A stretch of 64,000 nt of DNA. Source: Ilex aquifolium. Lineage: Eukaryota; Streptophyta; Magnoliopsida; Aquifoliales; Aquifoliaceae. The DNA lies in contig OX637398.1 of NCBI GenBank assembly GCA_951799425.1, forward strand, positions 23,756,270-23,820,269. Direction: 5' to 3'. The translations under genes were made by a program, and so were the position numbers. Every line of letters begins with the position of its first letter. Within the stretch, counting starts at the first letter, position 1. Below are positions 9,723-64,000 of the stretch, piece by piece. The notes under the pieces were generated by a model. The model had not been told where the DNA came from and did no database searches. It worked only from the letters and a program-made list of their open reading frames with translations.

Positions 9723-9731
9723 GGAGAAGAC

Positions 9732-9827
9732 AAGCTTCTTGAGGAAGCCTTGACAAAGCTTCTAAGGGAAGCTTGGTGGGCAAAGCTTCTTGAAGAAGCT
9801 TGGAGACTTAGCTTCTTGAGGAAGCTT
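9732..9827. promoter_or_regulatory. Four palindromic heat-shock-element-like repeats
   Basis: Four 19-bp copies of the pattern AAGCTTCTTGAGGAAGCTT start at 9732, 9756, 9783 and 9809, spaced 24-27 bp. The third, AAGCTTCTTGAAGAAGCTT, is a palindrome around its central base. Copies contain TTCnnGAA-type half-site pairs like plant heat shock elements. They lie directly upstream of the antisense TATA-like box. Heat or stress control is an inference. Confidence 0.6.
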
Positions 9828-9909
9828 GGAAGAACACCCTTGTTGAAGAAAGCCTCAAGAAATGGAGAAATGATGGAATGAACAGTGAACTCTGTTTATA
9901 AACGAAGAA

Positions 9910-9957
9910 GCTGTATAAAAAAAAAAAGAAAAAAAAAAGAGAAAAAGAAAATTTTTC
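9910..9957. repeat. A-rich low-complexity tract
   Basis: Runs of A broken by single Gs, just upstream of the antisense promoter repeats in minus-strand terms. It could be an AT-rich promoter element or simple slippage DNA. Confidence 0.6.
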
Positions 9958-10081
9958 CGACACCGATAAGTCCATCGGCTCCCGAAGACGAAGGAGTTCC
10001 GTGGAGAGCAAGGAAAGACCAACCCAAGCGAAGGCAGAGCACATGCACACAACCTCTTCCTCCCACAGAAGTCAGAAGCTT

Positions 10082-10098
10082 GGAGCATGGGGGGCAAA
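10082..10098 (+). promoter_or_regulatory. Polypurine tract of the gypsy element
   Basis: GGAGCATGGGGGGCAAA directly abuts the TG of the 3' LTR at 10099, the required position for the plus-strand primer. It contains a few pyrimidines but has the G-run typical of such tracts. Confidence 0.7.
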
Positions 10099-10891
10099 TG
10101 ACGAGCCCGAAAATTGACTGGGCCAAGCCCAACTTATATGGACCAAGAAAGCCCAAAGGAAATCCCGTGCGGAGTTGAATAGCCCGGATTACAAAGGAAG
10201 CCCAAGTCAAGGCCCAAATCAAGACAAAGTCCAGAGGACCCAAGGCCGTGGACAAGGGGGCGCCGCCCATGGGGAGGCCACCCTTGGCGCCGCCCATGGG
10301 GGCGCCTGCCTTGGTCTCCTCCTCCCTTGCCTCCTTATTCCAATGAAGCCTCCTACGACTCAAGCCTAGTCCACCCCAACTCAAGCCTAGTCCATCTCAG
10401 GACCACCTCTGACGGAATAGGAGCACGAGGGAGAAAAAATCGGGATACGCACCGGAGATCTAGTTCTACCATAACTGTACCTACCAAAGTGGTAGAATCC
10501 TACCATAACTACACTTACCAAAATAGTGATGACCGCCTCAACTCACCGCCTTAGTGAACCTATATAATGTAAACTCTCTCCACTTGGAGAGGCATCCGAT
10601 AATCTACACACACCACACCTCCAATACCTCTACGCATTGCTCTCTCTCTCTCCCAAAGCTCTGTAACATTCCGGTGACCCTTATTCATCAATAAAGAACA
10701 CCGGCCATCGCTGCCATTCCAGAGAGTGGACGTAGGTCATCTGAGACCGAACCACTATAAATCTCTGTGTCGATTCTCTGTTTATAGTTTTATTCCTTGA
10801 TTGCCATCAATTGATTGTTTATTGCTCATTAATTGCATCATAACTCATACTTGACTGTTGATCTTGCCAAAGACAATTTTGTGCATCATCA
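10099..10891 (+). repeat. 3' LTR of the gypsy element
   Basis: 793 bp, TG...CA, matching the 5' LTR including the TATA box (10561-10567) and AATAAA (10690-10695). Relative to the 5' LTR, the GC-rich GGGCGCCGCCCATGG block near 10240-10330 is expanded at one end and contracted at the other, while a CT-rich segment is shorter. Confidence 0.95.
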
Positions 10892-12167: not shown

Positions 12168-12290
12168 GCAAACTATATTTTCCCTGAAAGCCCTTAAATT
12201 TTACCTTTCGGAAAACCTTTAAATTTTAATCACACACAGCCCTAATTTAATATTTTTCCACTGTTTTCCACACTTTCTCATCATCCAAAC

Positions 12291-30824: not shown

Positions 30825-31009
30825 AGTAACATTAAAAACAAAAAATAGTAACATAGCATATTAACATTTATAACATGGAAACTTCCACGAGTGTAGTTGA
30901 AGCAAGTGCTACCACGGAGGTACATGACTAGGACAAGGAAATCCCCACATGTGTGGAGGGTGAAGATTGCTATGAGGATATTCAAGACGTATATGGTCAA
31001 TAATTGTTT

Positions 31010-31669
31010 GTCCAATTCTTCAAGCAACAAGAGGAGGTGCTCTCCTTGAGTGATCAGGTCAACTCAAGTGAAGAAGAGACAAGAGGCCTTCAAGATCACT
31101 TGGTCAAGTCCAAGGCCCAAATACGTAGCCTAGAAGATGAGAACAAGTCTCTCCCTGACCGAATGAGTTATCTTTAGAGAGGGTGGCATGAGCTCGTCAA
31201 ATCTAAGAAGAATCTTGAGTCAAAATGTGTCAAACTTGATAAAGATCATCGTGAATCGAATAAGCTCTCCAACAGACTTCCCCAATGAAATGAGAAGTTT
31301 GGTAGGATGTTATTTGTGGGAAAAAGTGTAGGTGATAATCGTGGTTTAGGCAACACAAATGAACGCACCCACACTTCTTCCAAGACCGTGTTTGTCAAGG
31401 GTATCACCAACCCATCACCCCGACAAGTTGGCACATGCCCAAAATTTGTTAAGAATGGTAAGGGTGGGAATTCAAAGAAAAAGGTTGCTAAAGAAACCGA
31501 AATCGTTGGTGTGTGCAGACCAAGGATTGTTGGCGTGCCCATAATCGCTCGAGGCCTAGATGAACCGTGCGGTATGGAGGTCCAAGTGAAGCTACACCAC
31601 ACGTCGCAGAGGGACTTTCGACGGAGAAACATAGCAAGGAAAGGAGCATCTAACCATGGTATTGGTTGA
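31010..31669 (+). pseudogene. gag C-terminal half in array unit 1 (type example for all units)
   Basis: One frame runs from about 30950 through 31669 with stops at the same three places in most units: after YGQ, after SYL and after LPQ. The first part is heptad-like (QQEEVLSLSDQVNSSEE, KAQIRSLEDENKSL) and predicts a coiled coil. Next come EKFGRMLFVGKS, GDNRGLGNTNE and SSKTVFVKG, the order seen near the end of SIRE-type copia gag. The tail ends at TGA (31667-31669) before LTR-like DNA. The 120-codon segment after the last stop remains open in every unit, but this may only reflect low divergence. Confidence 0.7.
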
Positions 31670-32158
31670 GGTATAATTCTCGAGTACTTGCATGCCGACT
31701 TGGAGAGTAGTGGATTCGGCTTTGGTGAACCTAGGTAGGTTCCTCGCGGTTTTTTTCGAGGGGGTTTTTCGGCGTCAACAAATAGCTAGTGTTCTTTACT
31801 TTCTACTGTACACACTTGCATTTGTTAGCACACACACGCACTGTGTGGTTGTTTATTTGATTGTACGGATATCATTCAACCATAGGTGTGCAATTGGGTC
31901 TAAGGGTTTGTTGGGATCGCCGTGAGATTGGCCAGAGTGAATTAATTGCATATTAATTAAAATCAATAATCATGGTCCAACGGGTTTTGTGGTGACTGAA
32001 AGGGTTCCCACATTCGATGCCTCATATTTGTGAGGAGAGGTAGTTGTGGTAGGCATAGGTTTTAATTCGTAATCAATTTGGGCTAAAATTGAGAAACCTA
32101 TTCAACCCCCTTCAAGGTAATTGTCGAGAAATCTATCATTACTACTAGTTTGTGTTGA
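31670..32158 (+). repeat. LTR-like non-coding segment in array unit 1 (type example)
   Basis: About 490 bp between the gag tail and the next gag start. It holds GGTTCCTCGCGGTTTTTTTC and GGCGTCAACAAATAGC words and ends with GAGAAACCTATTCAACCCCC, a form common at the 3' end of copia-type LTRs. The classical tRNA-iMet primer site TGGTATCAGAGC is not found after it. It may therefore be an LTR that lost its primer site, shared between neighbouring copies. Confidence 0.5.
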
Positions 32159-32620
32159 ATGGGTTCTCAAAAGGAAAGCGGTTCCATTGGACGACCACCA
32201 CTCTTCGATGCATCGAACTTTGCAAAATCCTAAGAGAGCATTTTCTTAAATCCATTGATGAGAGAGCGTGGTTGACTCTCCAAGAGGGTTGGAGGCCTTC
32301 CGCCACCGCCAAAAAAGTTGAAAGTGGTCAAGTGGTGGTTGAAGTAAAATCCTCGAAGGTATGGATTAAAAATGAGAATGAGTCAACGGGGTGAAACTCA
32401 AAAGGCTTGGATGCGATATTAAATGCCGCGACACCTAACTAGTTCCGAAGGATCGCTAATTGCAAAACTTCAAAGGAAGCGTGCGATACCTTGGTTGTTT
32501 CCCACGAAGGGACTTCCTTGGTGGAGATGGCTCAACTGCAAAGGTAGACCTCTCAGTTCGAGAGTTTGAGGGTGCAAGATGATGAAACATTAAAGAGAAT
32601 TTCCTACTAAAATGCGTGAT
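32159..32620 (+). pseudogene. gag N-terminal half in array unit 1 (type example)
   Basis: The ATG at 32159 starts MGSQKESGSIGRPPLFDASN, then a frameshift near 32230 leads to FLKSIDERAWLTLQEGW, and further on VSHEGTSLVEM and FESLRVQDDETLKRIS. This matches the N-terminal and UBN2-type region of plant copia gag. Several stops and frameshifts are shared by all units; unit 14 also has ATG changed to ACG. Confidence 0.7.
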
Positions 32621-32885
32621 ACTGCAAAATTAATCATTTGCATTAGGTATCAAGGTTGACGATGCGGCCATCAAGTGGAAAATCTTGTGATCTCTAGCGG
32701 AGAGATTTCGTGTTAAGGTCTCATCCTTGGAGACAAGTGTCAACATAGAGTTGGTGTCGGTGGAAGACCAAGTTGGGTCTATCTTGACCTTTGAGATGAT
32801 CCTTCCATCCTTAAAGTAAGCTAAGGGCAGGGCCTTGAGCTCAAATAATCAAGGAGGAGGTAAATTCGGGTGACCCCGATTTTGA

Positions 32886-33178
32886 GAGGAGGACCTAGCC
32901 TTGATTGCAAAGAAGTTCAAAAAATATTTCAAGACTAGTAATGCTGAGTCCTCAAGGCCGAAAGGAAAGCCTAGTAGACGTAGCACTCCTACGGAAGGAA
33001 GAGAAAAAAGCGGAAGGGACTCTCGAAAAGAAGTTGACAAAAAGGGGCAAGGTTTCCAATGCTTTGAATGTCAAGGATTTGGACATATTGTATCGGAAAA
33101 GCCCACATAGAAAGAAGAGAGGTTTGCACAATGAAAGTTGGAGGGCTATGAAAGCCAAGTGGCGTGATCGTGAAAGTT
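32886..33178 (+). pseudogene. gag zinc-knuckle region in array unit 1 (type example)
   Basis: A basic Ser/Lys/Arg-rich stretch followed by FQCFECQGFGHIVSE, a CX2CX4HX4C zinc knuckle whose last Cys is lost. In units 1-6 it reads EKP, in units 7-14 ESP, a one-base length difference that also changes the downstream frame. NESWRAMKAKWRDRES and an acidic Ser/Asp-rich stretch follow, as in SIRE-like gag. Confidence 0.75.
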
Positions 33179-33271
33179 AGTCGACGTCGGGTGATGACTC
33201 CTCTTCTCGAGATGATGAAGAGAATTTTACGGCTTTTGCAGGACCAGTCTCCTCTACCCCCTCCCCCAAGA

Positions 33272-35665
33272 GAAACTTCCGCGAGTGTAGTTGAAGCAAG
33301 TGCTACCACGGAGGTACATGACTAGGACAAGGAAATCCCCACATGTGTGGAGGGTGAAGATTGCTATGAGGATATTCAAGACGTATATGGTCAATAATTG
33401 TTTGTGCAATTCTTCAAGCAACAAGAGGAGGTGCTCTCCTTGAGTGATCAGGTCAACTCAAGCGAAGAAGGGACAAGAGGCCTTCAAGATCACTTGGTCA
33501 AGTCCAAGGCCCAAATACGTAGCCTAGAAGATGAGAACAAGTCTCTCCCTGACCGAATGAGTTATCTTTAGAGACAGTGGCATGAGCTCGTCAAATCTAA
33601 GAAGAATCTTGAGTCAAAATGTGTCAAACTTGATAAAGATCATCGTGAATCGAATAAGCTCGCCAACAGACTTCCCCAATGAAATGAGAAGTTTGGTAGG
33701 ATGTTATTTGTGGGAAAAAGTGTAGGTGATAATCGTGGTTTAGGCAACACAAATGAACGCACCCACAATTCTTCCAAGACCGTGTTTGTCAAGGGTATCG
33801 CCAACCCATCACCCCGACAAGTTGGCACATGCCCAAAATTTGTTAAGAATGGTAAGGGTGGGAATTCAAAGAAGAAGGTTGCTAAAAAAACCGAAATCAT
33901 TGGTGTGTGCAGACCAAGGATTGTTGGCGTGCCCATAATCGCTCGAGGCCTAGATGAACCGTGCGGCATGGAGGTCCAAGTGAAGCTACACCACACGTCG
34001 CAGAGGGACTTTCGACGGAGAAACATAGCAAGGAAAGGAGCATCTAACCATGGTATTGGTTGAGGTATAATTCTCGAGTACTTGCATGCCGACTTGGAGA
34101 GTAGTGGATTCGGCTTTGGTGAACCTAGGTAGGTTCCTCGCGGTTTTTTTCGAGGGGGTTTTTCGGCGTCAACAAATAGCTAGTGTTCTTTACTTTCTAC
34201 TGTACACACTTGCATTTGTTAGCACACACACGCACTGTGTGGTTGTTTATTTGATTGTACGGATATCATTCAACCATAGGTGTGCAATTGGGTCTAAGGG
34301 TTTGTTGGGATCGCCGTGAGATTGGCCAGAGTGAATTAATTGCATATTAATTAAAATCAATAATCATGGTCCAACGGGTTTTGTGGTGACTGAAAGGGTT
34401 CCCACATTCGATGCCTCATATTTGTGAGGAGAGGTAGTTGTGGTAGGCATAGGTTTTAATTCGTAATCAATTTGGGCTAAAATTGAGAAACCTATTCAAC
34501 CCCCTTCAAGGTAATTGTCGAGAAATCTATCATTACTACTAGTTTGTGTTGAATGGGTTCTCAAAAGGAAAGCGGTTCCATTGGACGACCACCACTCTTC
34601 GATGCATCGAACTTTGCAAAATCCTAAGAGAGCGTTTTCTTAAATCCATTGATGAGAGAGCGTGGTTGACTCTCCAAGAGGGTTGGAGGCCTTCCGCCAC
34701 CGCCAAAAAAGTTGAAAGTGGTCAAGTGGTGGTTGAAGTAAAATCCTCGAAGGTATGGATTAAAAATGAGAATGAGTCAACGGGGTGAAACTCAAAAGGC
34801 TTGGATGCGATATTAAATGCCGCGACACCTAACTAGTTCCGAAGGATCGCTAATTGCAAAACTTCAAAGGAAGCGTGCGATACCTTGGTTGTTTCCCACG
34901 AAGGGACTTCCTTGGTGGAGATGGCTCAACTGCAAAGGTAGACCTCTCAGTTCGAGAGTTTGAGGGTGCAAGATGATGAAACATTAAAGAGAATTTCCTA
35001 CTAAAATGCGTGATACTGCAAAATTAATCATTTGCATTAGGTATCAAGGTTGACGATGCGACCATCAAGTGGAAAATCTTGTGATCTCCAGCGGAGAGAT
35101 TTCGTGTTAAGGTCTCATCCTTGGAGACAAGTGTCAACATAGAGTTGGTGTCGGTGGAAGACCAAGTTGGGTCTATCTTGACCTTTGAGATGATCCTTCC
35201 ATCCTTAAAGTAAGCTAAGGGCAGGGCCTTGAGCTCAAATAATCAAGGAGGAGGTAAATTCGGGTGACCCCGATTTTGAGAGGAGGACCTAGCCTTGATT
35301 GCAAAGAAGTTCAAAAAATATTTCAAGACTAGTAATGCTGAGTCCTCAAGGCCGAAAGGAAAGCCTAGTAGACGTAGCACTCCTACGGAAGGAAGAGAAA
35401 AAAGCGGAAGGGACTCTCGAAAAGAAGTTGACAAAAAGGGGCAAGGTTTCCAATGCTTTGAATGTCAAGGATTTGGACATATTGTATCGGAAAAGCCCAC
35501 ATAGAAAGAAGAGAGGTTTGCACAATGAAAGTTGGAGGGCTATGAAAGCCAAGTGGCGTGATCGTGAAAGTTAGTCGACGTCGGGTGATGACTCCTCTTC
35601 TCGAGATGATGAAGAGAATTTTACGGCTTTTGCAGGACCAGTCTCCTCTACCCCCTCCCCCAAGA
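33272..35665 (+). repeat. Array unit 2 (2394 bp)
   Basis: Shares AGAGACAGTGGCATGAG (near 33571) and CACAATTCTTCC with unit 3, marking the two as a recent duplicate pair. Private variant: CTCGCCAACAGAC near 33660. Confidence 0.95.
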
Positions 35666-38058
35666 GAAACTTCCGCGAGTGTAGTTGAAGCAAGTGCTAC
35701 CACGGAGGTACATGACTAGGACAAGGAAATCCCCACATGTGTGGAGGGTGAAGATTGCTATGAGGATATTCAAGACGTATATGGTCAATAATTGTTTGTG
35801 CAATTCTTCAAGCAACAAGAGGAGGTGCTCTCCTTGAGTGATCAGGTCAACTCAAGCGAAGAAGGGACAAGAGGCCTTCAAGATCACTTGGTCAAGTCCA
35901 AGGCCCAAATACGTAGCCTAGAAGATGAGAACAAGTCTCTCCCTGACCGAATGAGTTATCTTTAGAGACAGTGGCATGAGCTCGTCAAATCTAAGAAGAA
36001 TCTTGAGTCAAAATGTGTCAAACTTGATAAAGATCATCGTGAATCGAATAAGCTCTCCAACAGACTTCCCCAATGAAATGAGAAGTTTGGTAGGATGTTA
36101 TTTGTGGGAAAAAGTGTAGGTGATAATCGTGGTTTAGGCAACACAAATGAACGCACCCACAATTCTTCCAAGACCGTGTTTGTCAAGGGTATCGCCAACC
36201 CATCACCCCGACAAGTTGGCACATGCCCAAAATTTGTTAAGAATGGTAAGGGTGGGAATTCAAAGAAGAAGGTTGCTAAAAAAACCGAAATCATTGGTGT
36301 GTGCAGACCAAGGATTGTTGGCGTGCCCATAATCGCTCGAGGCCTAGATGAACCGTGCGGTATGGAGGTCCAAGTGAAGCTACACCACACGTCGCAGAGG
36401 GACTTTCGACGGAGAAACATAGCAAGGAAAGGAGCATCTAACCATGGTATTGGTTGAGGTATAATTCTCGAGTACTTGCATGCCGACTTGGAGAGTAGTG
36501 GATTCGGCTTTGGTGAACCTAGGTAGGTTCCTCGCGGTTTTTTTCGAGGGGGTTTTTCGGCGTCAACAAATAGCTAGTGTTCTTTACTTTCTACTGTACA
36601 CACTTGCATTTGTTAGCACACACACGCACTGTGTGGTTGTTTATTTGATTGTACGGATATCATTCAACCATAGGTGTGCAATTGGGTCTAAGGGTTTGTT
36701 GGGATCGCCGTGAGATTGGCCAGAGTGAATTAATTGCATATTAATTAAAATCAATAATCATGGTCCAACGGGTTTTGTGGTGACTGAAAGGGTTCCCACA
36801 TTCGATGCCTCATATTTGTGAGGAGAGGTAGTTGTGGTAGGCATAGGTTTTAATTCGTAATCAATTTGGGCTAAAATTGAGAAACCTATTCAACCCCCTT
36901 CAAGGTAATTGTCGAGAAATCTATCATTACTACTAGTTTGTGTTGAATGGGTTCTCAAAAGGAAAGCGGTTCCATTGGACGACCACCACTCTTCGATGCA
37001 TCGAACTTTGCAAAATCCTAAGAGAGCGTTTTCTTAAATCCATTGATGAGAGAGCGTGGTTGACTCTCCAAGAGGGTTGGAGGCCTTCCGCCACCGCCAA
37101 AAAAGTTGAAAGTGGTCAAGTGGTGGTTGAAGTAAAATCCTCGAAGGTATGGATTAAAAATGAGAATGAGTCAACGGGGTGAAACTCAAAAGGCTTGGAT
37201 GCGATATTAAATGCCGCGACACCTAACTAGTTCCGAAGGATCGCTAATTGCAAAACTTCAAAGGAAGCGTGCGATACCTTGGTTGTTTCCCACGAAGGGA
37301 CTTCCTTGGTGGAGATGGCTCAACTGCAAAGGTAGACCTCTCAGTTCGAGAGTTTGAGGGTGCAAGATGATGAAACATTAAAGAGAATTTCCTACTAAAA
37401 TGCGTGATACTGCAAAATTAATCATTTGCATTAGGTATCAAGGTTGACGATGCGACCATCAAGTGGAAAATCTTGTGATCTCCAGCGAGAGATTTCGTGT
37501 TAAGGTCTCATCCTTGGAGACAAGTGTCAACATAGAGTTGGTGTCGGTGGAAGACCAAGTTGGGTCTATCTTGACCTTTGAGATGATCCTTCCATCCTTA
37601 AAGTAAGCTAAGGGCAGGGCCTTGAGCTCAAATAATCAAGGAGGAGGTAAATTCGGGTGACCCCGATTTTGAGAGGAGGACCTAGCCTTGATTGCAAAGA
37701 AGTTCAAAAAATATTTCAAGACTAGTAATGCTGAGTCCTCAAGGCCGAAAGGAAAGCCTAGTAGACGTAGCACTCCTACGGAAGGAAGAGAAAAAAGCGG
37801 AAGGGACTCTCGAAAAGAAGTTGACAAAAAGGGGCAAGGTTTCCAATGCTTTGAATGTCAAGGATTTGGACATATTGTATCGGAAAAGCCCACATAGAAA
37901 GAAGAGAGGTTTGCACAATGAAAGTTGGAGGGCTATGAAAGCCAAGTGGCGTGATCGTGAAAGTTAGTCGACGTCGGGTGATGACTCCTCTTCTCGAGAT
38001 GATGAAGAGAATTTTACGGCTTTTGCAGGACCAGTCTCCTCTACCCCCTCCCCCAAGA
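35666..38058 (+). repeat. Array unit 3 (2393 bp)
   Basis: Nearly identical to unit 2. Lacks one G near 37485 (CCAGCGAGAG where neighbours have CCAGCGGAGAG), which explains its period of 2393. Confidence 0.95.
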
Positions 38059-40444
38059 GAAACTTCCGCGAGTGTAGTTGAAGCAAGTGCTACCACGGAG
38101 GTACATGACTAGGACAAGGAAATCCCCACATGTGTGGAGGGTGAAGATTGCTATGAGGATATTCAAGACGTATATGGTCAATAATTGTTTGTGCAATTCT
38201 TCAAGCAACAAGAGGAGGTGCTCTCCTTGAGGGATCAGGTCAACTCAAGTGAAGAAGGGACAAGAGGCCTTCAAGATCACTTGGTCAAGTCCAAGGCCCA
38301 AATACGTAGCCTAGAAGATGAGAACAAGTCTCTCCCTGACCGAATGAGTTATCTTTAGAGAGAGTGGCATGAACTCGTCAAATCTAAGAAGAATCTTGAG
38401 TCAAACTTGATAAAGATCATCGTGAATCGAATAAGCCCCCCAACAGACTTCCCCAATGAAATGAGAAATTTTGGTAGGATGTTATCTGTGGGAAAAAGTG
38501 TAGGTGATAATCGTGGTTTAGGCAACACAAATGAACGCACCCACACTTCTTCCAAGACCGTGTTTGTCAAGGGTATCACCAACCCATCACCCCGACAAGT
38601 TGGCACATGCCCAAAATTTTTTAAGAATGATAAGGGTGGGAATTCAAAGAAGAAGGTTGCTAAAGAAACCGAAATCATTGGTGTGTGCAGACCAAGGATT
38701 GTTGGCGTGCCCATAATCGCTCGAGGCCTAGATGAACCGTGCGGTATGGAGGTCCAAGTGAAGCTACACCACACGTCGCAGAAGGACTTTCGACGGAGAA
38801 ACATAGGAAGGAAAGGAGCATCTAACCATGGTATTGGTTGAGGTATAATTCACGAGTACTTGCATGCCGACTTGGAGAGTAGTGGATTCGGCTTTGGTGA
38901 ACCTAGGTAGGTTCCTCGCGGTTTTTTTCGAGGGGGTTTTTCGGCGTCAACAAATAGCTAGTGTTCTTTACTTTCTACTGTACACACTTGCATTTGTTAG
39001 CACACACACGCACCGTGTGGTTGTTTATTTGATTGTACGGATATCATTCAACCATAGGTGTGCAATTGGGTCTATTGGGTTTGTTGGGATCGCCGCGAGA
39101 TTGGCCAGAGTGAATTAATTGCATATTAATTAAAATCAATAATCATGGTCCAACGGGTTTTGTGGTGACTGAAAGGGTTCCCACATTCGTTGCCTCATAT
39201 TTGTGAGGAGAGGTAGTTGTGGTAGGCATAGGTTTTAATTCGTAATCAATTTGGGCTAAAATTGAGAAACCTATTCAACCCCCTTCAAGGTAATTGTCGA
39301 GAAATCTATCATTACTACTAGTTTGTGTTGAATGGGTTCTCAAAAGGAAAGCGGTTCCATTGGACGACCACCACTCTTCGATGCATCGAACTTTGCAAAA
39401 TCCTAAGAGAGCGTTTTCTTAAATCCATTGATGAGAGAGCGTGGTTGACTCTCCAAGAGGGTTGGAGGCCTTCCGCCACCGCCAAAAAAGTTGAAAGTGG
39501 TCAAGTGGTGGTTGAAGAAAAATCCTCGAAGGTATGGATTAAAAATGAGAATGAGTCAACGGGGTGAAACTCAAAAGGATTGGATGCGATATTAAATGCC
39601 GCGACACCTAACTAGTTCCGAAGGATCGCTAATTGCATAACTTCAAAGGAAGCGTGCGATACCTTGGTTATTTCCCACGAAGGGACTTCCTTGGTGGAGA
39701 TGGCTCAACTGCAAAGGTAGACCTCTCAGTTCGAGAGTTTGAGGGTGCAAGATGATGAAACATTAAAGAGAATTTCCTACTAAAATGCGTGATACTGCAA
39801 AATTAATCATTTGCATTAGGTATCAAGGTTGACGATGCGGCCATCAAGTGGAAAATCTAGTGATCTCCAGCGGAGAGATTTCGTGTTAAGGTCTCATCCT
39901 TGGAGACAAGTGTCAACATAGAGTTGGTGTCGGTGGAAGACCAAGTTGGGTCTATCTTGACCTTTGAGATGATCCTTCCATCCTTAAAGTAAGCTAAGGG
40001 CAGGGCCTTGAGCTCAAATAATCAAGGAGGAGGTAAATTCGGGTGACCCCGATTTTGAGAGGAGGACCTAGCCTTGATTGCAAAGAAGTTCAAAAAATAT
40101 TTCAAGACTAGTAATGCTGAGTCCTCAAGGCCGAAAGGAAAGCCTAGTAGACGTAGCACTCCTACGGAAGGAAGAGAAAAAAGCGGAAGGGACTCTCGAA
40201 AAGAAGTTGACAAAAAGGGGCAAGGTTTCCAATGCTTTGAATGTCAAGGATTTGGACATATTGTATCGGAAAAGCCCACATAGAAAGAAGAGAGGTTTGC
40301 ACAATGAAAGTTGGAGGGCTATGAAAGCCAAGTGGCGTGATCGTGAAAGTTAGTCGACGTCGGGTGATGACTCCTCTTCTCGAGATGATGAAGAGAATTT
40401 TACGGCTTTTGCAGGACCAGTCTCCTCTACCCCCTCCCCCAAGA
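38059..40444 (+). repeat. Array unit 4 (2386 bp)
   Basis: First of three units with a 10-nt deletion (near 38403) removing AATGTGTCAA from the coiled-coil region. Also GAGGGATCAGG in place of GAGTGATCAGG. The deletion restores an open frame of 144 codons at 38407-38841. Confidence 0.95.
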
Positions 40445-42830
40445 GAAACTTCCGCGAGTGTAGTTGAAGCAAGTGCTACCACGGAGGTACATGACTAGGA
40501 CAAGGAAATCCCCACATGTGTGGAGGGTGAAGATTGCTATGAGGATATTCAAGACGTATATGGTCAATAATTGTTTGTGCAATTCTTCAAGCAACAAGAG
40601 GAGGTGCTCTCCTTGAGGGATCAGGTCAACTCAAGTGAAGAAGGGACAAGAGGCCTTCAAGATCACTTGGTCAAGTCCAAGGCCCAAATACGTAGCCTAG
40701 AAGATGAGAACAAGTCTCTCCCTGACCGAATGAGTTATCTTTAGAGAGAGTGGCATGAGCTCGTCAAATCTAAGAAGAATCTTGAGTCAAACTTGATAAA
40801 GATCATCGTGAATCGAATAAGCCCCCCAACAGACTTCCCCAATGAAATGAGAAATTTTGGTAGGATGTTATCTGTGGGAAAAAGTGTAGGTGATAATCGT
40901 GGTTTAGGCAACACAAATGAACGCACCCACACTTCTTCCAAGACCGTGTTTGTCAAGGGTATCACCAACCCATCACCCCGACAAGTTGGCACATGCCCAA
41001 AATTTTTTAAGAATGATAAGGGTGGGAATTCAAAGAAGAAGGTTGCTAAAGAAACCGAAATCATTGGTGTGTGCAGACCAAGGATTGTTGGCGTGCCCAT
41101 AATCGCTCGAGGCCTAGATGAACCGTGCGGTATGGAGGTCCAAGTGAAGCTACACCACACGTCGCAGAAGGACTTTCGACGGAGAAACATAGGAAGGAAA
41201 GGAGCATCTAACCATGGTATTGGTTGAGGTATAATTCACGAGTACTTGCATGCCGACTTGGAGAGTAGTGGATTCGGCTTTGGTGAACCTAGGTAGGTTC
41301 CTCGCGGTTTTTTTCGAGGGGGTTTTTCGGCGTCAACAAATAGCTAGTGTTCTTTACTTTCTACTGTACACACTTGCATTTGTTAGCACACACACGCACC
41401 GTGTGGTTGTTTATTTGATTGTACGGATATCATTCAACCATAGGTGTGCAATTGGGTCTATTGGGTTTGTTGGGATCGCCGCGAGATTGGCCAGAGTGAA
41501 TTAATTGCATATTAATTAAAATCAATAATCATGGTCCAACGGGTTTTGTGGTGACTGAAAGGGTTCCCACATTCGTTGCCTCATATTTGTGAGGAGAGGT
41601 AGTTGTGGTAGGCATAGGTTTTAATTCGTAATCAATTTGGGCTAAAATTGAGAAACCTATTCAACCCCCTTCAAGGTAATTGTCGAGAAATCTATCATTA
41701 CTACTAGTTTGTGTTGAATGGGTTCTCAAAAGGAAAGCGGTTCCATTGGACGACCACCACTCTTCGATGCATCGAACTTTGCAAAATCCTAAGAGAGCGT
41801 TTTCTTAAATCCATTGATGAGAGAGCGTGGTTGACTCTCCAAGAGGGTTGGAGGCCTTCCGCCACCGCCAAAAAAGTTGAAAGTGGTCAAGTGGTGGTTG
41901 AAGAAAAATCCTCGAAGGTATGGATTAAAAATGAGAATGAGTCAACGGGGTGAAACTCAAAAGGATTGGATGCGATATTAAATGCCGCGACACCTAACTA
42001 GTTCCGAAGGATCGCTAATTGCAAAACTTCAAAGGAAGCGTGCGATACCTTGGTTATTTCCCACGAAGGGACTTCCTTGGTGGAGATGGCTCAACTGCAA
42101 AGGTAGACCTCTCAGTTCGAGAGTTTGAGGGTGCAAGATGATGAAACATTAAAGAGAATTTCCTACTAAAATGCGTGATACTGCAAAATTAATCATTTGC
42201 ATTAGGTATCAAGGTTGACGATGCGGCCATCAAGTGGAAAATCTAGTGATCTCTAGTCGAGAGATTTCGTGTTAAGGTCTCATCCTTGGAGACAAGTGTC
42301 AACATAGAGTTGGTGTCGGTGGAAGACCAAGTTGGGTCTATCTTGACCTTTGAGATGATCCTTCCATCCTTAAAGTAAGCTAAGGGCAGGGCCTTGAGCT
42401 CAAATAATCAAGGAGGAGGTAAATTCGGGTGACCCCGATTTTGAGAGGAGGACCTAGCCTTGATTGCAAAGAAGTTCAAAAAATATTTCAAGACTAGTAA
42501 TGCTGAGTCCTCAAGGCCGAAAGGAAAGCCTAGTAGACGTAGCACTCCTACGGAAGGAAGAGAAAAAAGCGGAAGGGACTCTCGAAAAGAAGTTGACAAG
42601 AAGGGGCAAGGTTTCCAATGCTTTGAATGTCAAGGATTTGGACATATTGTATCGGAAAAGCCCACATAGAAAGAAGAGAGGTTTGCACAATGAAAGTTGG
42701 AGGGCTATGAAAGCCAAGTGGCGTGATCGTGAAAGTTAGTCGACGTCGGGTGATGACTCCTCTTCTCGAGATGATGAAGAGAATTTTACGGCTTTTGCAG
42801 GACCAGTCTCCTCTACCCCCTCCCCCAAGA
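40445..42830 (+). repeat. Array unit 5 (2386 bp)
   Basis: Almost identical to unit 4, including the 10-nt deletion and the AGAAGGACTTTCG and ATAGGAAGG variants near 41165-41195, so the pair duplicated recently. Confidence 0.95.
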
Positions 42831-54804: not shown

Positions 54805-57203
54805 GAAACTTCCGCGAGTGTAGTTGAAGCAAGTGCTACCACGGAGGTACAAGACTAGGACAAGGAAATCCCCACATGTGTGGAGGGCAAAGATTGCTAT
54901 GAGGATATTCAAGACGCATATGGTCAATAATTGTTTGTGCAATTCTTCAAGCAATAGGAGGAGGTGCTCTCCTTGAGTGATCAGGTCAACTCAAGTGAAG
55001 AAGGGACAAGAGGCCTTCAAGATCACTTGGTCAAGTCCAAGGCCCAAATACGTAGCCTAGAAGATGAGAACAAGTCTCTCCCTGACCGAATGAGTTATCT
55101 TTAGAGAGAGTGGCATGAGCTCGTCAAATCTAAGAAGAATCTTGAGTCAAAATGTGTCAAACTTGATAAAGATCACCGTGAATCGAATAAGCCCCCCAAC
55201 AGACTTCCCCAATGAAATGAGAAGTTTGGTAGGATGTTATCTGTGGGAAAAAGTGTAGGTGATAATCGTGGTTTAGGCAACACAAATGAACGCACCCACA
55301 CTTCTTCCAAGACCGTGTTTGTCAAGGGTATCACCAACCCATCACCCCGACAAGTTGGCACATGCCCAAAATTTTTTAAGAATGATAAGGGTGGGAATTC
55401 AAAGAAGAAGGTTGCTAAAGAAACCGAAATCATTGGTGTGTGCAGACCAAGGATTGTTGGCGTGCCCATAATCGCTCGAGGCCTAGATGAACCGTGCGGT
55501 ATGGAGGTCCAAGTGAAGCTACACCACACGTCGCAGAGGGACTTTCGACGGAGAAACATAGCAAGGAAAGGAGCACCTAACCATGGTATTGGTTGAGGTA
55601 TAATTCTCGAGTACTTGCATGCCCGACTTGGAGAGTAGTGGATTCGGCTTTGGTGAACCTAGGTAGGTTCCTCGCGGTTTTTTTCGAGGGGGTTTTTCGG
55701 CGTCAACAAATAGCTAGTGTTCTTTACTTTCTACTGTACACACTTGCATTTGTTAGCACACACACACGCACTGTGTGGTTGTTTATTTGATTGTACGGAT
55801 ATCATTCAACCATAGGTGTGGAATTGGGTCTATTGGGTTTGTTGGGATCGCCGTGAGATTGGCCAGAGTGAATTAATTGCATATTAATTAAAATCAATAA
55901 TCATGGTCCAACGGGTTTTGTGGTGACTGAAAGGGTTCCCACATTCGTTGCCTCATATTTGTGAGGAGAGGTAGTTGTGGTAGGCATAGGTTTTAATTCG
56001 TAATCAATTTGGGCTAAAATTGAGAAACCTATTCAACCCCCTTCAAGGTAATTGTCGAGAAATCTATCATTACTACTAGTTTGTGTTGAATGGGTTCTCA
56101 AAAGGAAAGCGGTTCCATTGGACGACCACCACTCTTCGATGCATCGAACTTTGCAAAATCCTAAGAGAGCGTTTTCTTAAATCCATTGATGAGAGAGCGT
56201 GGTTGACTCTCCAAGAGGGTTGGAGGCCTTCCGCCACCGCCAAAAAAGTTGAAAGTGGTCAAGTGGTGGTTGAAGTAAAATCCTCGAAGGTATAGATTAA
56301 AAATGAGAATGAGTCAACGGGGTGAAACTCAAAAGGCTTGGATGCGATATTAAATGCCGCGACACCTAACTAGTTCCGAAGGATCGCTAATTGCAAAACT
56401 TCAAAGGAAGCGTGCGATACCTTGGTTGTTTCCCACGAAGGGACTTCCTTGGTGGATATGGCTCAACGGCAAAGGTAGACCTCTCAGTTCGAGAGTTTGA
56501 GGGTGCAAGATGATGAAACATTAAAGAGAATTTCCTACTAAAATGCGTGATACCGTAAATTAATCATTTGCATTGGGTATCAGGGTTGACGATGTGGCCA
56601 TCAAGTGGAAAATCTTGTGGTCTCTAGCCGAGAGATTTCGTGTTAAGGTCTCATCCTTGGAGACATGTGTCAACATAGAGTTGGTGTCGGTGGAAGACCA
56701 AGTTGGGTCTATCTTGACCTTTGAGATGATCCTTCCATCCTTAAAGTAAGCTAAGGGCAGGGCCTTGAGCTCAAATAATCAAGGAGGAGGTAAATTCGGG
56801 TGACCCCGATTTTGAGAGGAGGACCTAGCCTTGATTGCAAAGAAGTTCAAAAAATATTTCAAGACTAGTAATGCTGAGTCCTCAAGGCCGAAAGGAAAGC
56901 CTAGTAGACGTAGCACTCCTACGGAGGGAAGAGAAAAAAGGGGAAGGGACTCTCGAAAAGAAGTTGACAAAAAGGGGCATGGTTTCCAATGCTTTGAATG
57001 TCAAGGATTTGGACATATTGTATCGGAAAGCCCACATAGAAAGAAGTGAGGTTTGCACAATGAAAGTTGGAGGGCTATGAAAGCCAAGAAGTGGCGTGAT
57101 CGTGAAAGTTAGTCGACGTCGGGTGATGACTCCTCTTCTCGAGATGATGAAGAGAATTTTACGGCTTTTGCAGGACCAGTCTCCTCTACCCCCTCCCCCA
57201 AGA
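54805..57203 (+). repeat. Array unit 11 (2399 bp)
   Basis: Pairs with unit 14: GGATATGGCTCAACGGC and CTAGCCGAGAG near 56630, GAGCACCTAACC near 55572. Private TATAGATT (stop) near 56291 where others have TATGGATT. Confidence 0.95.
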
Positions 57204-59599
57204 GAAACTTCCGCGAGTGTAGTTGAAGCAAGTGCTACCACGGAGGTACAAGACTAGGACAAGGAAATCCCCACATGTGTGGAGGGCAAAGATTGCTATG
57301 AGGATATTCAAGACGCATATGGTCAATAATTGTTTGTGCAATTCTTCAAGCAATAGGAGGAGGTGCTCTCCTTGAGTGATCAGGTCAACTCAAGTGAAGA
57401 AGGGACAAGAGGCCTTCAAGATCACTTGGTCAAGTCCAAGGCCCAAATACGTAGCCTAGAAGATGAGAACAAGTCTCTCCCTGACCGAATGAGTTATCTT
57501 TAGAGAGAGTGGCATGAGCTCGTCAAATCTAACAAGAATCTCGAGTCAAAATGTGTCAAACTTGATAAAGATCACCGTGAATCGAATAAGCCCCCCAACA
57601 GACTTCCCCAATGAAATGAGAAGTTTGGTAGGATGTTATCTGTGGGAAAAAGTGTAGGTGATAATCGTGGTTTAGGCAACACAAATGAACGCACCCACAC
57701 TTCTTCCAAGACCGTGTTTGTCAAGGGTATCACCAACCCATCACCCCGACAAGTTGGCACATGCCCAAAATTTTTTAAGAATGATAAGGGTGGGAATTCA
57801 AAGAAGAAGGTTGCTAAAGAAACCGAAATCATTGGTGTGTGCAGACCAAGGATTGTTGGCGTGCCCATAATCGCTCGAGGCCTAGATGAACCGTGCGGTA
57901 TGGAGGTCCAAGTGAAGCTACACCACACGTCGCAGAGGGACTTTCGACGGAGAAACATAGCAAGGAAAGGAGCATCTAACCATGGTATTGGTTGAGGTAT
58001 AATTCTCGAGTACTTGCATGCCCGACTTGGAGAGTAGTGGATTCGGCTTTGGTGAACCTAGGTAGGTTCCTCGCCGTTTTTTTCGAGGGCGTTTTTCGGC
58101 GTCAACAAATAGCTAGTGTTCTTTACTTTCTACTGTAGACACTTGCATTTGTTAGCACAGACACACGCACTGTGTGGTTGTTTATTTGATTGTACGGATA
58201 TCATTCAACCATAGGTGTGCAATTGGGTCTATTGGGTTTGTTGGGATCGCCGTGAGATTGGCCAGAGTGAATTAATTGCATATTAATTAAAATCAATAAT
58301 CATGGTCCAACGGGTTTTGTGGTGACTGAAAGGGTTCCCACATTCGTTGCCTCATATTTGTGAGGAGAGGTAGTTGTGGTAGGCATAGGTTTTAATTCGT
58401 AATCAATTTGGGCTAAAATTGAGAAACCTATTCAACCCCCTTCAAGGTAATTGTCGAGAAATCAATCATTACTACTAGTTTGTGTTGAATGGGTTCTCAA
58501 AAGGAAAGCGGTTCCATTGGACGACCACCACTCTTCGATGCATCGAACTTTGCAAAATCCTAAGAGAGCGTTTTCTTAAATCCATTGATGAGAGAGCGTG
58601 GTTGACTCTCCAAGAGGGTTGGAGGCCTTCCGCCACCGCCAAAAAAGTTGAAAGTGGTCAAGTGGTGGTTGAAGTAAAATCCTCGAAGGTATGGATTAAA
58701 AATGAGAATGAGTCAACGGGGTGAAACTCAAAAGGCTTGGATGCGATATTAAATGCCGCGACACCTAACTAGTTCCGAAGGATCGCTAATTGCAAAACTT
58801 CAAAGGAAGCGTGCGATACCTTGGTTGTTTCCCACGAAGGGACTTCCTTGGTGGAGATGGCTCAACTGCAAAGGTAGACCTCTTAGTTCGAGAGTTTGAG
58901 GGTGCAAGATGATGAAACATTAAAGAGAATTTCCTACTAAAATGCGTGATACCGTAAATTAATCATTTGCATTAGGTATCATGGTTGACGATGTGGCCAT
59001 CAAGTGGAAAATCTTGTGATCTCCAGCGGAGAGATTTCGTGTTAAGGTCTCATCCTTGGAGACAAGTGTCAACATAGAGTTGGTGTCGGTGGAAGACCAA
59101 GTTGGGTCTATCTTGACCTTTGAGATGATCCTTCCATCCTTAAAGTAAGCTAAGGGCAGGGCCTTGAGCTCAAATAATCAAGGAGGAGGTAAATTCGGGT
59201 GACCCCGATTTTGAGAGGAGGACCTATCCATGATTGCAAAGAAGTTCAACAAATATTTCAAGACTAGTAATGCTGAGTCCTCAAGGCCGAAAGGAAAGCC
59301 TAGTAGACGTAGCACTCCTACGGAGGGAAGAGAAAAAAGGGGAAGGGACTCTCGAAAAGAAGTTGACAAGAAGGGGCAAGGTTTCCAATGCTTTGAATGT
59401 CAAGGATTTGGACATATTTTATCGGAAAACCCACGTAGAAAGAAGAGAGGTTTGCACAATGAAAGTTGGAGGGCTATGAAAGCCAAGTGGCGTGATCGTG
59501 AAAGTTAGTCGACGTCGGGTGATGACTCCTCTTCTCGAGATGATGAAGAGAATTTTACGGCTTTTGCAGGACCAGTCTCCTCTACCCCCTCCCCCAAGA
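57204..59599 (+). repeat. Array unit 12 (2396 bp)
   Basis: Trimer partner of unit 9. Private variants: CTAACAAGAATC near 57530, GAGGGCGTTTTT near 58086, and CATATTTTATCGGAAAACCC in the zinc-knuckle region. Confidence 0.95.
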
Positions 59600-61997
59600 G
59601 AAACTTCCGCGAGTGTAGTTGAAGCAAGTGCTACCACGGAGGTACATGACTAGGACAAGGAAATCCCCACATGTGTGTAGGGCGAAGATTGCTATGAGGA
59701 TATTCAAGACGTATATGGTCAATAATTGTTTGTGCAATTCTTCAAGCAACAGGAGGAGGTGCTCTCCTCGAGTGATCAGGCCAACTCAAGTGAAGAAGGG
59801 ACAAGAGGCCTTCAAGATCACTTGGTCAAGTCCAAGGCCCAAATACGTAGCCTAGAAGATGAGAACAAGTCTCTCCCTGACCGAATGAGTTATCTTTAGA
59901 GAGAGTGGCATGAGCTCGTCAAATCTAAGAAGAATCTTGTGTCAAAATGTGTCAAACTTGATAAAGATCACCGTGAATCGAATAAGCCCCCCAACAGACT
60001 TCCCCAATGAAATGAGAAGTTTGGTAGGATGTTATCTGTGGGAAAAAGTGTAGGTGATAATCGTGGTTTAGGCAACACAAATGAACGCACCCACACTTCT
60101 TCCAAGACCGTGTTTGTCAAGGGTATCACCAACCTATCACCCCGACAAGTTGGCACATGCCCAAAATTTTTTAAGAATGATAAGGGTGGGAATTCAAAGA
60201 AGAAGGTTGCTAAAGAAACCGAAATCATTGGTGTGTGCAGACCAAGGATTGTTGGCGTGCCCATAATCGCTCGAGGCCTAGATGAACCGTGCGGTATGGA
60301 GGTCCAAGTGAAGCTACACCACACGTCGCAGAGGGACTTTCGACGGAGAAACATAGCAAGGAAAGGAGCATCTAACCATGGTATTGGTTGAGGTATAATT
60401 CTCGAGTACTTGCATGCCCGACTTGGAGAGTAGTGGATTCGGCTTTGGTGAACCTAGGTAGGTTCCTCGCCGTTTTTTTCGAGGGGGTTTTTCGGCGTCA
60501 ACAAATAGCTAGTGTTCTTTACTTTCTACTGTACACACTTGCATTTGTTAGCACACACACACGCACTGTGTGGTTGTTTATTTGATTGTACGGATATCAT
60601 TCAACCATAGGTGTGGAATTGGGTCTATTGGGTTTGTTGGGATCGCCGTGAGATTGGCCAGAGTGAATTAATTGCATATTAATTAAAATCAATAATCATG
60701 GTCCAACGGGTTTTGTGGTGACTGAAAGGGTTCCCACATTCGTTGCCTCATATTTGTGAGGAGAGGTAGTTGTGGTAGGCATAGGTTTTAATTCGTAATC
60801 AATTTGGGGTAAAATTGAGAAACCTATTCAACCCCCTTCAAGGTAATTGTCGAGAAATCTATCATTACTACTAGTTTGTGTTGAATGGGTTCTCAAAAGG
60901 AAAGCGGTTCCATTGGACGACCACCACTCTTCGATGCATCGAACTTTGCAAAATCCTAAGAGAGCGTTTTCTTAAATCCATTGATGAGAGAGCGTGGTTG
61001 ACTCTCCAAGAGGGTTGGAGGCCTTCCGCCACCGCCAAAAAAGTTGAAAGTGGTCAAGTGGTGGTTGAAGTAAAATCCTCGAAGGTATGGATTAAAAATG
61101 AGAATGAGTCAACGGGGTGAAACTCAAAAGGCTTGGATGCGATATTAAATGCCACGACACCTAACTAGTTCCGAAGGATCGCTAATGCAAAACTTCAAAG
61201 GAAGCGTGCGATACCTTGGTTGTTTCCCACGAAGGGACTTCCTTGGTGGATATGGCGCAACGGCAAAGGTAGACCTCTCAGTTCGAGAGTTTGATGGTGC
61301 AAGATGATGAAACATTAAAGAGAATTTCCTACTAAAATGCGTGATACTGTAAATTAATCATTTGCATTGGGTATCAGGGTTGACGATGTGGCCATCAAGT
61401 GGAAAATCTTGTGATCTCCAGCGGAGAGATTTCGTGTTAAGGTCTCATCCTTGGAGACATGTGTCAACATAGAGTTGGTGTCGGTGGAAGACCAAGTTGG
61501 GTCTATCTTGACCTTTGAGATGATCCTTCCATCCTTAAAGTAAGCTAAGGGCAGGGCCTTGAGCTCAAATAATCAAGGAGGAGGTAAATTCGGGTGACCC
61601 CGATTCTGAGAGGAGGACCTAGCCTTGATTGCAAAGAAGTTCAAAAAATATTTCAAGACTAGTAATGCTGAGTCCTCAAGGCCGAAAGGAAAGCCTAGTA
61701 GACGTAGCACTCCTACGGAGGGAAGAGAAAAAAGGGGAAGGGACTCTCGAAAAGAAGTTGACAAAAAGGGGCATGGTTTCCAATGCTTTGAATGTCAAGG
61801 ATTTGGACATATTGTATCGGAAAGCCCACATAGAAAGAAGTGAGGTTTGCACAATGAAAGTTGGAGGGCTATGAAAGCCAAGAAGTGGCGTGATCGTGAA
61901 AGTTAGTCGACGTCGGGTGATGACTCCTCTTCTCGAGATGATGAAGAGAATTTTACGGCTTTTGCAGGACCAGTCTCCTCTACTCCCTACCCCAAGA
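59600..61997 (+). repeat. Array unit 13 (2398 bp)
   Basis: Trimer partner of unit 10 with the same private markers. Its right end has TACTCCCTACCCCAAG (near 61980), where all others have TACCCCCTCCCCCAAG. Confidence 0.95.
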
Positions 61998-64000
61998 GAA
62001 ACTTCCGCGAGTGTAGTTGAAGCAAGTGCTACCACGGAGGTACAAGACAAGGACAAGGAAATCCCCACATGTGTGGAGGGCAAAGATTGCTATGAGGATA
62101 TTCAAGACGCATATGGTCAATAATTGTTTGTGCAATTCTTCAAGCAACAGGAGGAGGTGCTCTCCTCGAGTGATCAGGTCAACTCAAGTGAAGAAGGGAC
62201 AAGAGGCCTTCAAGATCACTTGGTCAAGTCCAAGGCCCAAATACGTAGCCTAGAAGATGAGAACAAGTCTCTCCCTGACCGAATGAGTTATCTTTAGAGA
62301 GAGTGGCATGAGCTCGTCAAATCTAAGAAGAATCTTGAGTCAAAATGTGTCAAACTTGATAAAGATCACCGTGAATCGAATAAGCCCCCCAACAGACTTC
62401 CCCAATGAAATGAGAAGTTTGGTAGGATGTTATCTGTGGGAAAAAGTGTAGGTGATAATCGTGGTTTAGGCAACACAAATGAACGCACCCACACTTCTTC
62501 CAAGACCGTGTTTGTCAAGGGTATCACCAACCCATCACCCCGACAAGTTGGCACATGCCCAAAATTTTTTAAGAATGATAAGGGTGGGAATTCAAAGAAG
62601 AAGGTTGCTAAAGAAACCGAAATCATTGGTGTGTGCAGACCAAGGATTGTTGGCGTGCCCATAATCGCTCGAGGCCTAGATGAACCGTGCGGTATGGAGG
62701 TCCAAGTGAAGCTACACCACACGTCGCAGAGGGACTTTCGACGGAGAAACATAGCAAGGAAAGGAGCACCTAACCATGGTATTGGTTGAGGTATAATTCT
62801 CGAGTACTTGCATGCCCGACTTGGAGAGTAGTGGATTCGGCTTTGGTGAACCTAGGTAGGTTCCTCGCCGTTTTTTTCGAGGGGGTTTTTCGGCGTCAAC
62901 AAATAGCTAGTGTTCTTTACTTTCTACTGTACACACTTGCATTTGTTAGCACACACACACGCACTGTGTGGTTGTTTATTTGATTGTACGGATATCATTC
63001 AACCATAGGTGTGGAATTGGGTCTATTGGGTTTGTTGGGATCGCCGTGAGATTGGCCAGAGTGAATTAATTGCATATTAATTAAAATCAATAATCATGGT
63101 CCAACGGGTTTTGTGGTGACTGAAAGGGTTCCCACATTCGTTGCCTCATATTTGTGAGGAGAGGTAGTTGTGGTAGGCATAGGTTTTAATTCGTAATCAA
63201 TTTGGGCTAAAATTGAGAAACCTATTCAACCCCCTTCAAGGTAATTGTCGAGAAATCAATCATTACTACTAGTTTGTGTTGAACGGGTTCTCAAAAGGAA
63301 AGCGGTTCCATTGGACGACCACCACTCTTCGATGCATCGAACTTTGCAAAATCCTAAGAGAGCGTTTTCTTAAATCCATTGATGAGAGAGCGTGGTTGAC
63401 TCTCCAAGAGGGTTGGAGGCCTTCCGCCACCGCCAAAAAAGTTGAAAGTGGTCAAGTGGTGGTTGAAGTAAAATCCTCGAAGGTATGGATTAAAAATGAG
63501 AATGAGTCAACGGGGGTGAAACTCAAAAGGCTTGGATGCGATATTAAATGCCGCGACACCTAACTAGTTCCGAAGGATCGCTAATTGCAAAACTTCAAAG
63601 GAAGCGTGCGATACCTTGGTTGTTTCCCACGAAGGGACTTCCTTGGTGGATATGGCTCAACGGCAAAGGTAGACCTCTCAGTTCGAGAGTTTGAGGGTGC
63701 AAGATGATGAAACATTAAAGAGAATTTCCTACTAAAATGCGTGATACCGTAAATTAATCATTTGCATTGGGTATCAGGGTTGACGATGTGGCCATCAAGT
63801 GGAAAATCTTGTGATCTCTAGCCGAGAGATTCCGTGTTAAGGTCTCATCCTTGGAGACATGTGTCAACATAGAGTTGGTGTCGGTGGAAGACCAAGTTGG
63901 GTCTATCTTGACCTTTGAGATGATCCTTCCATCCTTAAAGTAAGCTAAGGGCAGGGCCTTGAGCTCAAATAATCAAGGAGGAGGTAAATTCGGGTGACCC
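61998..64000 (+). repeat. Array unit 14 (partial, 2003 bp, cut by the window edge)
   Basis: Trimer partner of unit 11. It alone has GACAAGGACAAGG near 62046, where the other units have GACTAGGACAAGG, so one stop codon shared by the others is absent. It also has GAACGGG in place of the gag start GAATGGG near 63282 and an extra G near 63515. Confidence 0.95.

Follow-up and report, generated by a model that had tools for sequence, protein, structure and literature searches.

How could a fragment of a retrotransposon that carries no enzymes become a long, homogeneous tandem array? The locus that raises this question lies in a window of 64,000 nucleotides on contig OX637398.1 (C8) of Ilex aquifolium. 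We performed BLAST with one unit as the query (window positions 40001-42396), which returned a partial copy at 30878-32837, 13 full copies (the query included) and the 49 opening bases of the next. Every copy was on the + strand and identities were 97.4-100%. The original prediction had described at least 13.8 copies in a long homogeneous array, and its coordinates and count agree with BLAST in the window; the array then runs on, head to tail, to ~0.90 Mb (C8 positions 23,787,147-24,687,747), or ~375 lengths of the 2.39-kb unit. The first 233 kb of this extent was read except for 7.5 kb, the remainder was sampled, and the copy number is that of the assembly. The array occupies 23.8-24.7 of the 37.7 Mb of C8. 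Successive recurrences of 20-mers in the window were mostly 2384-2400 bases apart. Alignments longer than 2300 bases were obtained for 89 copies in the window and the next 200 kb, and the 23 matching samples (18, 1 and 4) all had the unit in one orientation. Spacing was exactly 2388 bases in 39 of 45 successive intervals of one block; the period class differs by region (2388, 2400 or 2401), and the right part of the array is diverged, with ~89-96% identity to the reference unit. Chance is not a serious explanation for repeats of such identity over 33 kb. A long head-to-tail array of similar, non-coding units is satellite DNA; in this one no coding function survives, and its only role is most likely that of heterochromatic satellite.

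The composition of the unit was read against one dispersed relative on contig C4, which is 75-80% identical to it. The unit corresponds in turn to mid-LTR, a gap where the LTR end and primer site have been deleted, a frame-broken gag, the gag end, and mid-LTR again (Table 1). As judged from this comparison, the unit is a segment running from mid-LTR to the gag end whose end is joined to its start; it has a single internal deletion, and its gag is broken. The array is therefore not one of whole shared LTRs: the unit holds mid-LTR only and the primer site is gone, which excludes that arrangement, and the whole LTRs with a primer site between internal regions that mark a Cassandra-kind array were not found. 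The deletion was also present in all four further-right copies covering the point (L027, L031, L038 and L141), and the founder junction was common to the four samples covering it (L021, L025, L032 and L034). Junction and deletion are thus alike in core and diverged right-part copies in all covering samples (4/4 each). In the C4 relative, AAACCCAT stands on both sides of the founder junction. Only the relative shows this eight-base match; the unit differs there by a few bases and has it no longer.

Table 1. Features of the array and of an example unit, in window coordinates.
Feature	Position	Strand	Basis or remark
Satellite array, left end	30878..64000	+	13 full units and partials; continues to C8:24,687,747
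Left array edge, unit position 445	30870..30880	+	BLAST and edge reading
Example unit, LTR part to gag-LTR junction	38676..41061	+	BLAST and coordinates of the comparison with the C4 relative
LTR interior, ~600 bases	38676..39277	+	75% identity to C4 relative; LTR 5' part and 3' end absent
Deletion point	39277..39297	+	~167 bases of C4 relative absent: LTR end and primer-binding site
Leader remnant and broken gag	39297..41056	+	78-80% identity to C4 relative
Decayed zinc knuckle of gag, last cysteine lost	40233..40274	+	Frame/ORF reading
Founder junction, gag end to mid-LTR	41056..41062	+	Comparison with C4 relative

The gag start codon lies at 39332 in the example unit. The frame from this start meets a stop after 24 codons in 85 of the 89 units and after 29 in one; the gag start tag was not found in three. 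The longest stop-to-stop frames were 123-190 aa (88 units listed, of 89), and the zinc knuckle had lost its last cysteine in all 88 of the units listed, again of 89. A Pfam scan of six unit ORFs detected no gag family and gave two weak, unrelated matches only. Together with the 24-codon stop, this excludes an intact gag or any working protein. No pol was found in the unit.

To which element, then, does this DNA belong? The C4 relative matched PF14223 (E=3e-8) in one of four pieces scanned. Because the relative has this domain and the unit has a decayed zinc knuckle, the gag is identified as copia-type, through the relative. In the C4 relative, a Sirevirus-like LTR/primer-site junction follows ~84 bases after the end of the counterpart of the unit's LTR-like DNA, which confirms that this part is LTR-derived. 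That junction reads CA/ATTGATATTAGAGC, two transitions from the Sirevirus form; the unit itself lacks it. The Sirevirus form is given in a passage of PMC2829016 as CA/ATTGG with the primer site TATCAGAGC next, and the C-rich signal of Sirevirus LTRs has a mean distance of 21 bases from their end (PMC2829016). Both the unit and the C4 relative have a C-rich tract, but that of the relative lies ~72-85 bases before the LTR end, farther out than the Sirevirus mean. Of the Sirevirus gag traits, a central CCHC knuckle with a coiled coil downstream in a long gag, the knuckle is recognisable in the unit in its decayed form. Homology of the unit to the LTR and leader-gag of the relative marks a retrotransposon-derived satellite, and the gag domain, the knuckle and the LTR/primer-site junction suggest that its source was a single dead element of the Ty1/copia group, probably a Sirevirus. 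The broken copia gag, the LTR-like DNA and the lack of enzymes that had been proposed for the unit were thus borne out, the first two by way of the C4 relative, and a satellite made of gag and LTR DNA is supported. The proposed SIRE-like parent held in part: the label fits most testable features, but in the parts of the genome examined no close full-length parent was found, only the decayed C4 gag-side relative and a dispersed LTR family. No copia pol was recognised by eye among the ORFs in ~9.7 kb of C4 beyond gag. A search with the LTR 5' part placed 15 of 40 scored matches on contig C15. A C15 satellite of like kind was rejected, as neither a 2-kb piece of C15 nor any of nine 400-base samples from it matched the unit; the samples also lacked mutual matches apart from one of 31 bases.

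The edges of the array are informative about how it was founded. The right edge, beyond the window, falls at unit position ~432-438, so that both edges have nearly equal unit phase. Both lie inside gag and abut unrelated flanks (AT-rich on the left, inside a gypsy gag with PF03732 and RVP_2 on the right), and neither has the LTR 5' half or copia pol. Put together, the flanks do not make up a single empty site, and a deletion or rearrangement must therefore be added to an insertion model. On contig C6 we found one exact, circularly permuted monomer, which starts at unit position 822, ends at 824 and adjoins the end of a 647-base element. Its break is secondary because gag continues through 822 in the C4 relative. 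For the same reason, and because it already has the founder junction, the C6 copy is excluded as the founder. Simple arithmetic puts coincidence of phase at ~0.7-1.1% in the case of the edges and at 0.5% in that of C6, values that belong to a post hoc argument. The same-phase edges and the C6 monomer fit circles that were opened once and inserted. The original prediction had allowed a circular or a shared-LTR tandem intermediate; the circular form is favoured by these two independent same-phase breaks, while a plain shared-LTR tandem is not supported by a unit that keeps mid-LTR only and has lost the LTR end together with the primer site.

We infer the following model from these sequence footprints, no circle having been observed. 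Two short matching sequences, one in the LTR and the other where gag ends, would join to give a 2.4-kb circle or a tandem junction equivalent to it. A circle at least two units long would open at one point (unit position ~440) and insert on C8. Neighbouring units would then undergo unequal exchange or conversion, lengthening and homogenising the array to ~375 unit lengths, and the array may throw off single-unit circles that could insert elsewhere, as the permuted C6 monomer suggests. Plant satellite circles in monomer multiples are documented (PMC2543021). We consider this whole course, from dead copia segment through circle, C8 insertion and local expansion to shed circles, the probable explanation. 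A circle life cycle, in which a chance LTR-gag circle became a multimer that founded the 0.9-Mb array in whole units, with monomer circles shed into breaks elsewhere without reverse transcription, is plausible, if a little short of probable.

Expansion by exchange left its own pattern. Adjacent units had a mean identity of 99.6%, compared with 98.6% at lag 60, and for 61 of 89 units the nearest relative was the adjacent unit. No higher-order repeats were seen at lags 1-15, identity declining almost evenly with lag. This dependence on distance fits later local exchange, and supports the unequal-exchange expansion that had been suggested.

The same homogenisation would also be expected had the array grown in place. 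A local element that lost pol and half of its 3' LTR would be left with the gag end/mid-LTR junction of the unit, the C4 relative has one 8-base word either side of that junction, and unequal crossing-over between LTRs could then yield tandem LTR part-gag units and expand them with no circle. However, the edges carry neither the LTR 5' half nor copia pol and both break inside gag at nearly equal phase, and the permuted C6 monomer is left unexplained, which makes this route unlikely. Segmental spread alone is quite improbable. Here the C8 array would be a randomly cut piece of another array, such as one made of opposite-strand copies, and the C6 monomer a template-switch or gap-repair copy of one unit; 59 exact-tag copies in opposite orientation do exist elsewhere (not located), and the C6 copy sits at the end of its 647-base neighbour, a likely break site, but random cuts are not expected to yield whole-unit lengths twice. 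Among matches listed in contig order, a 39-base tag had no opposite-strand copy before C8:24.039 Mb, and a second tag (130 and 50 copies) had none before 24.312 Mb among the matches listed. No unit match was present in single 300-base samples from seven readable scaffolds (of 20) or in 11 readable contig-start samples (of 20).

That the assembler multiplied a few copies is a very remote prospect. Miscounting is possible where neighbouring units are identical, and our basis is an assembly, but the 89 aligned units contain 276 variable columns. Software copying would not make the regional period classes, and the divergence of the right part is not expected of it.

Satellite birth is usually inferred from finished arrays. 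Here the founder junction and the two edges of the array are kept, one unit has strayed, and the element segment of origin can be recognised in a relative; the circle model is therefore directly testable. Among the open-licence PMC papers listed, neither titles nor the openings of abstracts point to this unit. Sobo of Solanum bulbocastanum, reportedly a recently amplified satellite by the title of its paper, resembles the C8 unit in being made from LTR retrotransposon DNA. It is tabulated in PMC9659126 as SORE-1 LTR-derived, whereas the C8 unit adds most of a broken copia gag, and the edges and stray copy of the C8 array point to circle insertion. The same review reports that the rye satellite E3900, called E900 there, contains part of the gag frame of an LTR retrotransposon (PMC9659126); the C8 unit likewise contains partial gag, from a different source element. 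With CRM1TR and CRM4TR of maize, retrotransposon-derived satellites are thus already known, and the C8 array adds one in which the footprints of circle insertion are unusually clear. As described in part of PMC3648361, the maize units come wholly from one LTR element, are locally homogenised, and arose where illegitimate recombination linked the LTR to sequence downstream of it. The C8 unit shares the single parental LTR element, the LTR-downstream join and the local homogenisation. The maize units, however, are LTR-UTR only, ~0.7-1.4 kb long, and descend from gypsy (CRM) elements, and their similarity to extant elements reaches 97-98% (PMC3648361); the C8 unit has a copia parent, includes gag, is 75-80% identical to the one relative read, and forms a longer array. 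The C8 array shows that a near-megabase satellite can arise from a gag-containing copia segment, not only from LTR or UTR DNA. Tandem Cassandra arrays, in the account excerpted from PMC7215508, repeat LTRs with the internal domain as spacer in at least 12 copies; they too are head-to-tail retroelement copies, whereas the C8 array has no whole LTR and ~375 unit lengths. The Ogre-derived satellites of Lathyrus sativus also come from LTR retrotransposons, but arose through growth of short tandem arrays that lay within the element (PMC7004042), while the C8 unit is a large element segment.

A BLAST search of the window with the reference unit (window 40001-42396) returned 13 full copies, query included, all in a single orientation and 97.4-100% identical. 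In the window, the array begins with a partial copy at 30878 and runs up to the right end, where the first 49 bases of a further copy are present. The original prediction of the array's coordinates and copy number is thus correct. Within the window, the spacing of recurring twenty-base words was mostly 2384-2400 bases. In the assembly (800 Mb, 103 contigs), the window corresponds to contig C8:23,756,270-23,820,269, and the adjoining 200 kb to its right was filled by the array apart from one ~13.5-kb break with inserted DNA. The two visible end stretches of an insert within the array (sequence pieces L001-L020) have 1142 identical bases in common, as would be expected for a recent LTR retrotransposon insertion. 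Further along contig C8, the unit was matched in 18 of 20 400-base samples at 24.05-24.62 Mb (19 were readable, one of these having no match) and in a sample at 24.68 Mb. No unit match was present in 14 samples to the right of the array (24.74-26.5 Mb) or in five upstream samples (22.8-23.7 Mb). Finer sampling bracketed the end at 24,686,200-24,689,000 (4/20 samples matching), and a 3.2-kb stretch placed it at 24,687,747. As assembled, the array is ~900.6 kb long, equal to 375 unit lengths with insertions counted in.

An exact 39-base tag occurred genome-wide in 211 copies in the array orientation and 59 in the opposite one, and a second tag in 130 and 50 copies in the two orientations. Among the matches listed in contig order, no opposite-strand copy was found before C8:24.039 Mb for the 39-base tag or before C8:24.312 Mb for the second tag, so the opposite-strand copies are located either beyond these points on C8 or somewhere in contigs C9-C103. 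Since orientation was identical in 23 of 23 matching array samples, other contigs are the likelier location.

Pfam searches with six ORFs of the unit gave no gag family, just two weak unrelated matches. In a three-frame reading of the unit, a gag start was followed by copia-like gag text interrupted by stops and frame changes. The gag knuckle was mostly FQCFECQGFGHIVSES, its last cysteine missing in all 88 listed of 89 units. When a short gag pattern was run against the genome, it picked up a dispersed, decayed copia-type element on contig C4 (the C4 relative). Retrotran_gag_2 (PF14223, E=3e-8) was found in one gag piece of this element, and PF14223 had no match in the other three scanned pieces, one of them from contig C6.

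The unit aligned with the C4 relative in three blocks, 1062-1663 (75%), 1683-2396 (80%) and 6-1056 (78%), the last two of which run continuously in the relative. The C4 relative carries CA/ATTGATATTAGAGC ~84 bases beyond the DNA matching unit 1062-1663, two transitions off the Sirevirus LTR/primer junction described in a passage of PMC2829016. Because the matching block ends before this point, the non-gag part of the unit is, judged by the alignment, LTR interior. These matches, together with PF14223 and the CA/ATTGATATTAGAGC junction, bear out the predicted LTR-like DNA and broken copia-type gag, in an anatomical argument that depends largely on the single C4 relative. The same paper gives the C-rich tract of Sireviruses a mean distance of 21 bases from the LTR end; that of the C4 relative lies ~72-85 bases from it, a poorer fit to Sirevirus. 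The LTR end and primer site, ~167 bases of the C4 relative extending into the leader, are missing from the unit, and the canonical primer site TGGTATCAGAGC was not found in the window's array when two mismatches were allowed.

Within the unit, the gag end is joined to mid-LTR. The C4 relative reads AAACCCAT at both corresponding places, suggesting that the junction formed by a microhomology join; the unit today differs from AAACCCAT by a few bases. The junction was common to 4/4 covering samples further right (L021, L025, L032, L034) and the deletion to 4/4 (L027, L031, L038, L141), diverged ones included. On the simplest reading, the array would descend from one founder that was already broken.

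Mean pairwise identity across 89 aligned units was 98.9%, declining from a mean of 99.6% between adjacent units to 98.6% at lag 60. A neighbour was the nearest relative for 61 of the 89, and no higher-order period was seen at lags 1-15. Spacing was exactly 2388 bases in 39/45 successive intervals of a block near 24.20-24.31 Mb, and the far right part of the array was ~89-96% identical to the reference unit. An assembler copy error could also produce an array, but 276 variable columns among the 89 units and regional period classes argue against it. The pattern matches an array whose edge is old and whose core is younger, as local unequal exchange or conversion would produce. The fall of identity with lag and the nearness of neighbours support the predicted expansion by unequal exchange, with conversion named equally.

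The array's left edge is at unit 445 and its right edge at unit 438 (BLAST) or 432 (stricter alignment), both inside gag, so that the array is a whole number of units minus ~6-12 bases. The post hoc chance of two random ends agreeing so closely is ~0.7-1.1%. The flanking DNA is unrelated to the unit, being AT-rich at the left and gypsy gag interior at the right, where the edge adjoins a gag-protease interior (L141 1549-2876; PF03732; RVP_2, PF08284) and not an element end. Contig C6 carries a solitary monomer at 3.87 Mb. It is 2399 bases long, shares 97.5-98.3% identity with the 89 units of the array, and starts at unit 822 and ends at unit 824, each terminus reading CCCGC; whole-unit phase is expected, post hoc, in ~0.5% of random array fragments. 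The monomer adjoins the 3' edge of a 647-base element (L061, L065) whose ends are TAGGGGTG/CACCCCTA and which we take to be hAT-like. This element has ATTGAAGC before it and the monomer's far flank starts GAAGC, as if the monomer had inserted at the element's right end. Since the gag of the C4 relative is uninterrupted across unit 822, the break in the C6 monomer is secondary, pointing to derivation from a circle or tandem template. In the survey of PMC2543021, circles were detected for all plant satellites surveyed, with a preference for sizes that are a multiple of either the monomer or the higher-order repeat. Circle insertion is the best reading of both the edges' phase and the C6 monomer, for which it would account; growth in place is its main rival.

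Retrotransposon-derived satellites are an established class, with Sobo and E3900 (in part of the review PMC9659126), CRM1TR and CRM4TR (in part of PMC3648361), Ogre-derived satellites (in a section of PMC7004042) and tandem Cassandra arrays (in a section of PMC7215508). The array resembles such satellites as Sobo and E3900 in how it works, but unlike them it has a parent of copia/Sirevirus-like type, its unit retains most of gag, the block approaches a megabase in length and the edges preserve the unit phase. A Cassandra-style shared-LTR array was rejected because the unit holds LTR interior only and has lost the LTR end and primer site. The full-length parent envisaged in the original prediction was sought elsewhere in the genome, and no close one was found in the readable parts. 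The unit lacks the LTR 5' part, which occurs in many dispersed places: a first look gave 1319 candidates, and the 40 that were scored had 75-81% identity, self-match aside. The parent family therefore looks old and scattered. Contig C15 holds 11 of these 40 matches at 23.1-24.5 Mb (the region of L091), all in the same orientation, and the samples taken there revealed no short-period array.

Features annotated in the window and on contig C14
Feature	Location	Evidence
Gypsy LTR retrotransposon	window 259-10891	gag, RT, RNase H domains (PF03732, PF00078, PF13456)
Direct repeats flanking gypsy element	window 259-1052 and 10099-10891	94.6% identity
ABC transporter gene, open frames	window 12246-14122	PF00005 in 12246-13211
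Direct repeat, 260-310 bases, three copies	window 16923-19912	91-93%; two copies 372 bases apart
5S ribosomal RNA gene	L078 161-279, first 300 bases of contig C14	RF00001, 113.8 bits

The ABC transporter gene, presumably of the ABC-F type, is ~17 kb from the array edge, placing the satellite near an ordinary gene. The 5S gene is perhaps part of a 5S array at the C14 contig end. A different, shorter satellite was observed at one chromosome end, the start of contig C9 (L075), and on five small scaffolds (L086, L088, L101, L102, L104); match offsets suggest that its period is perhaps ~380 bases, with two similar halves.
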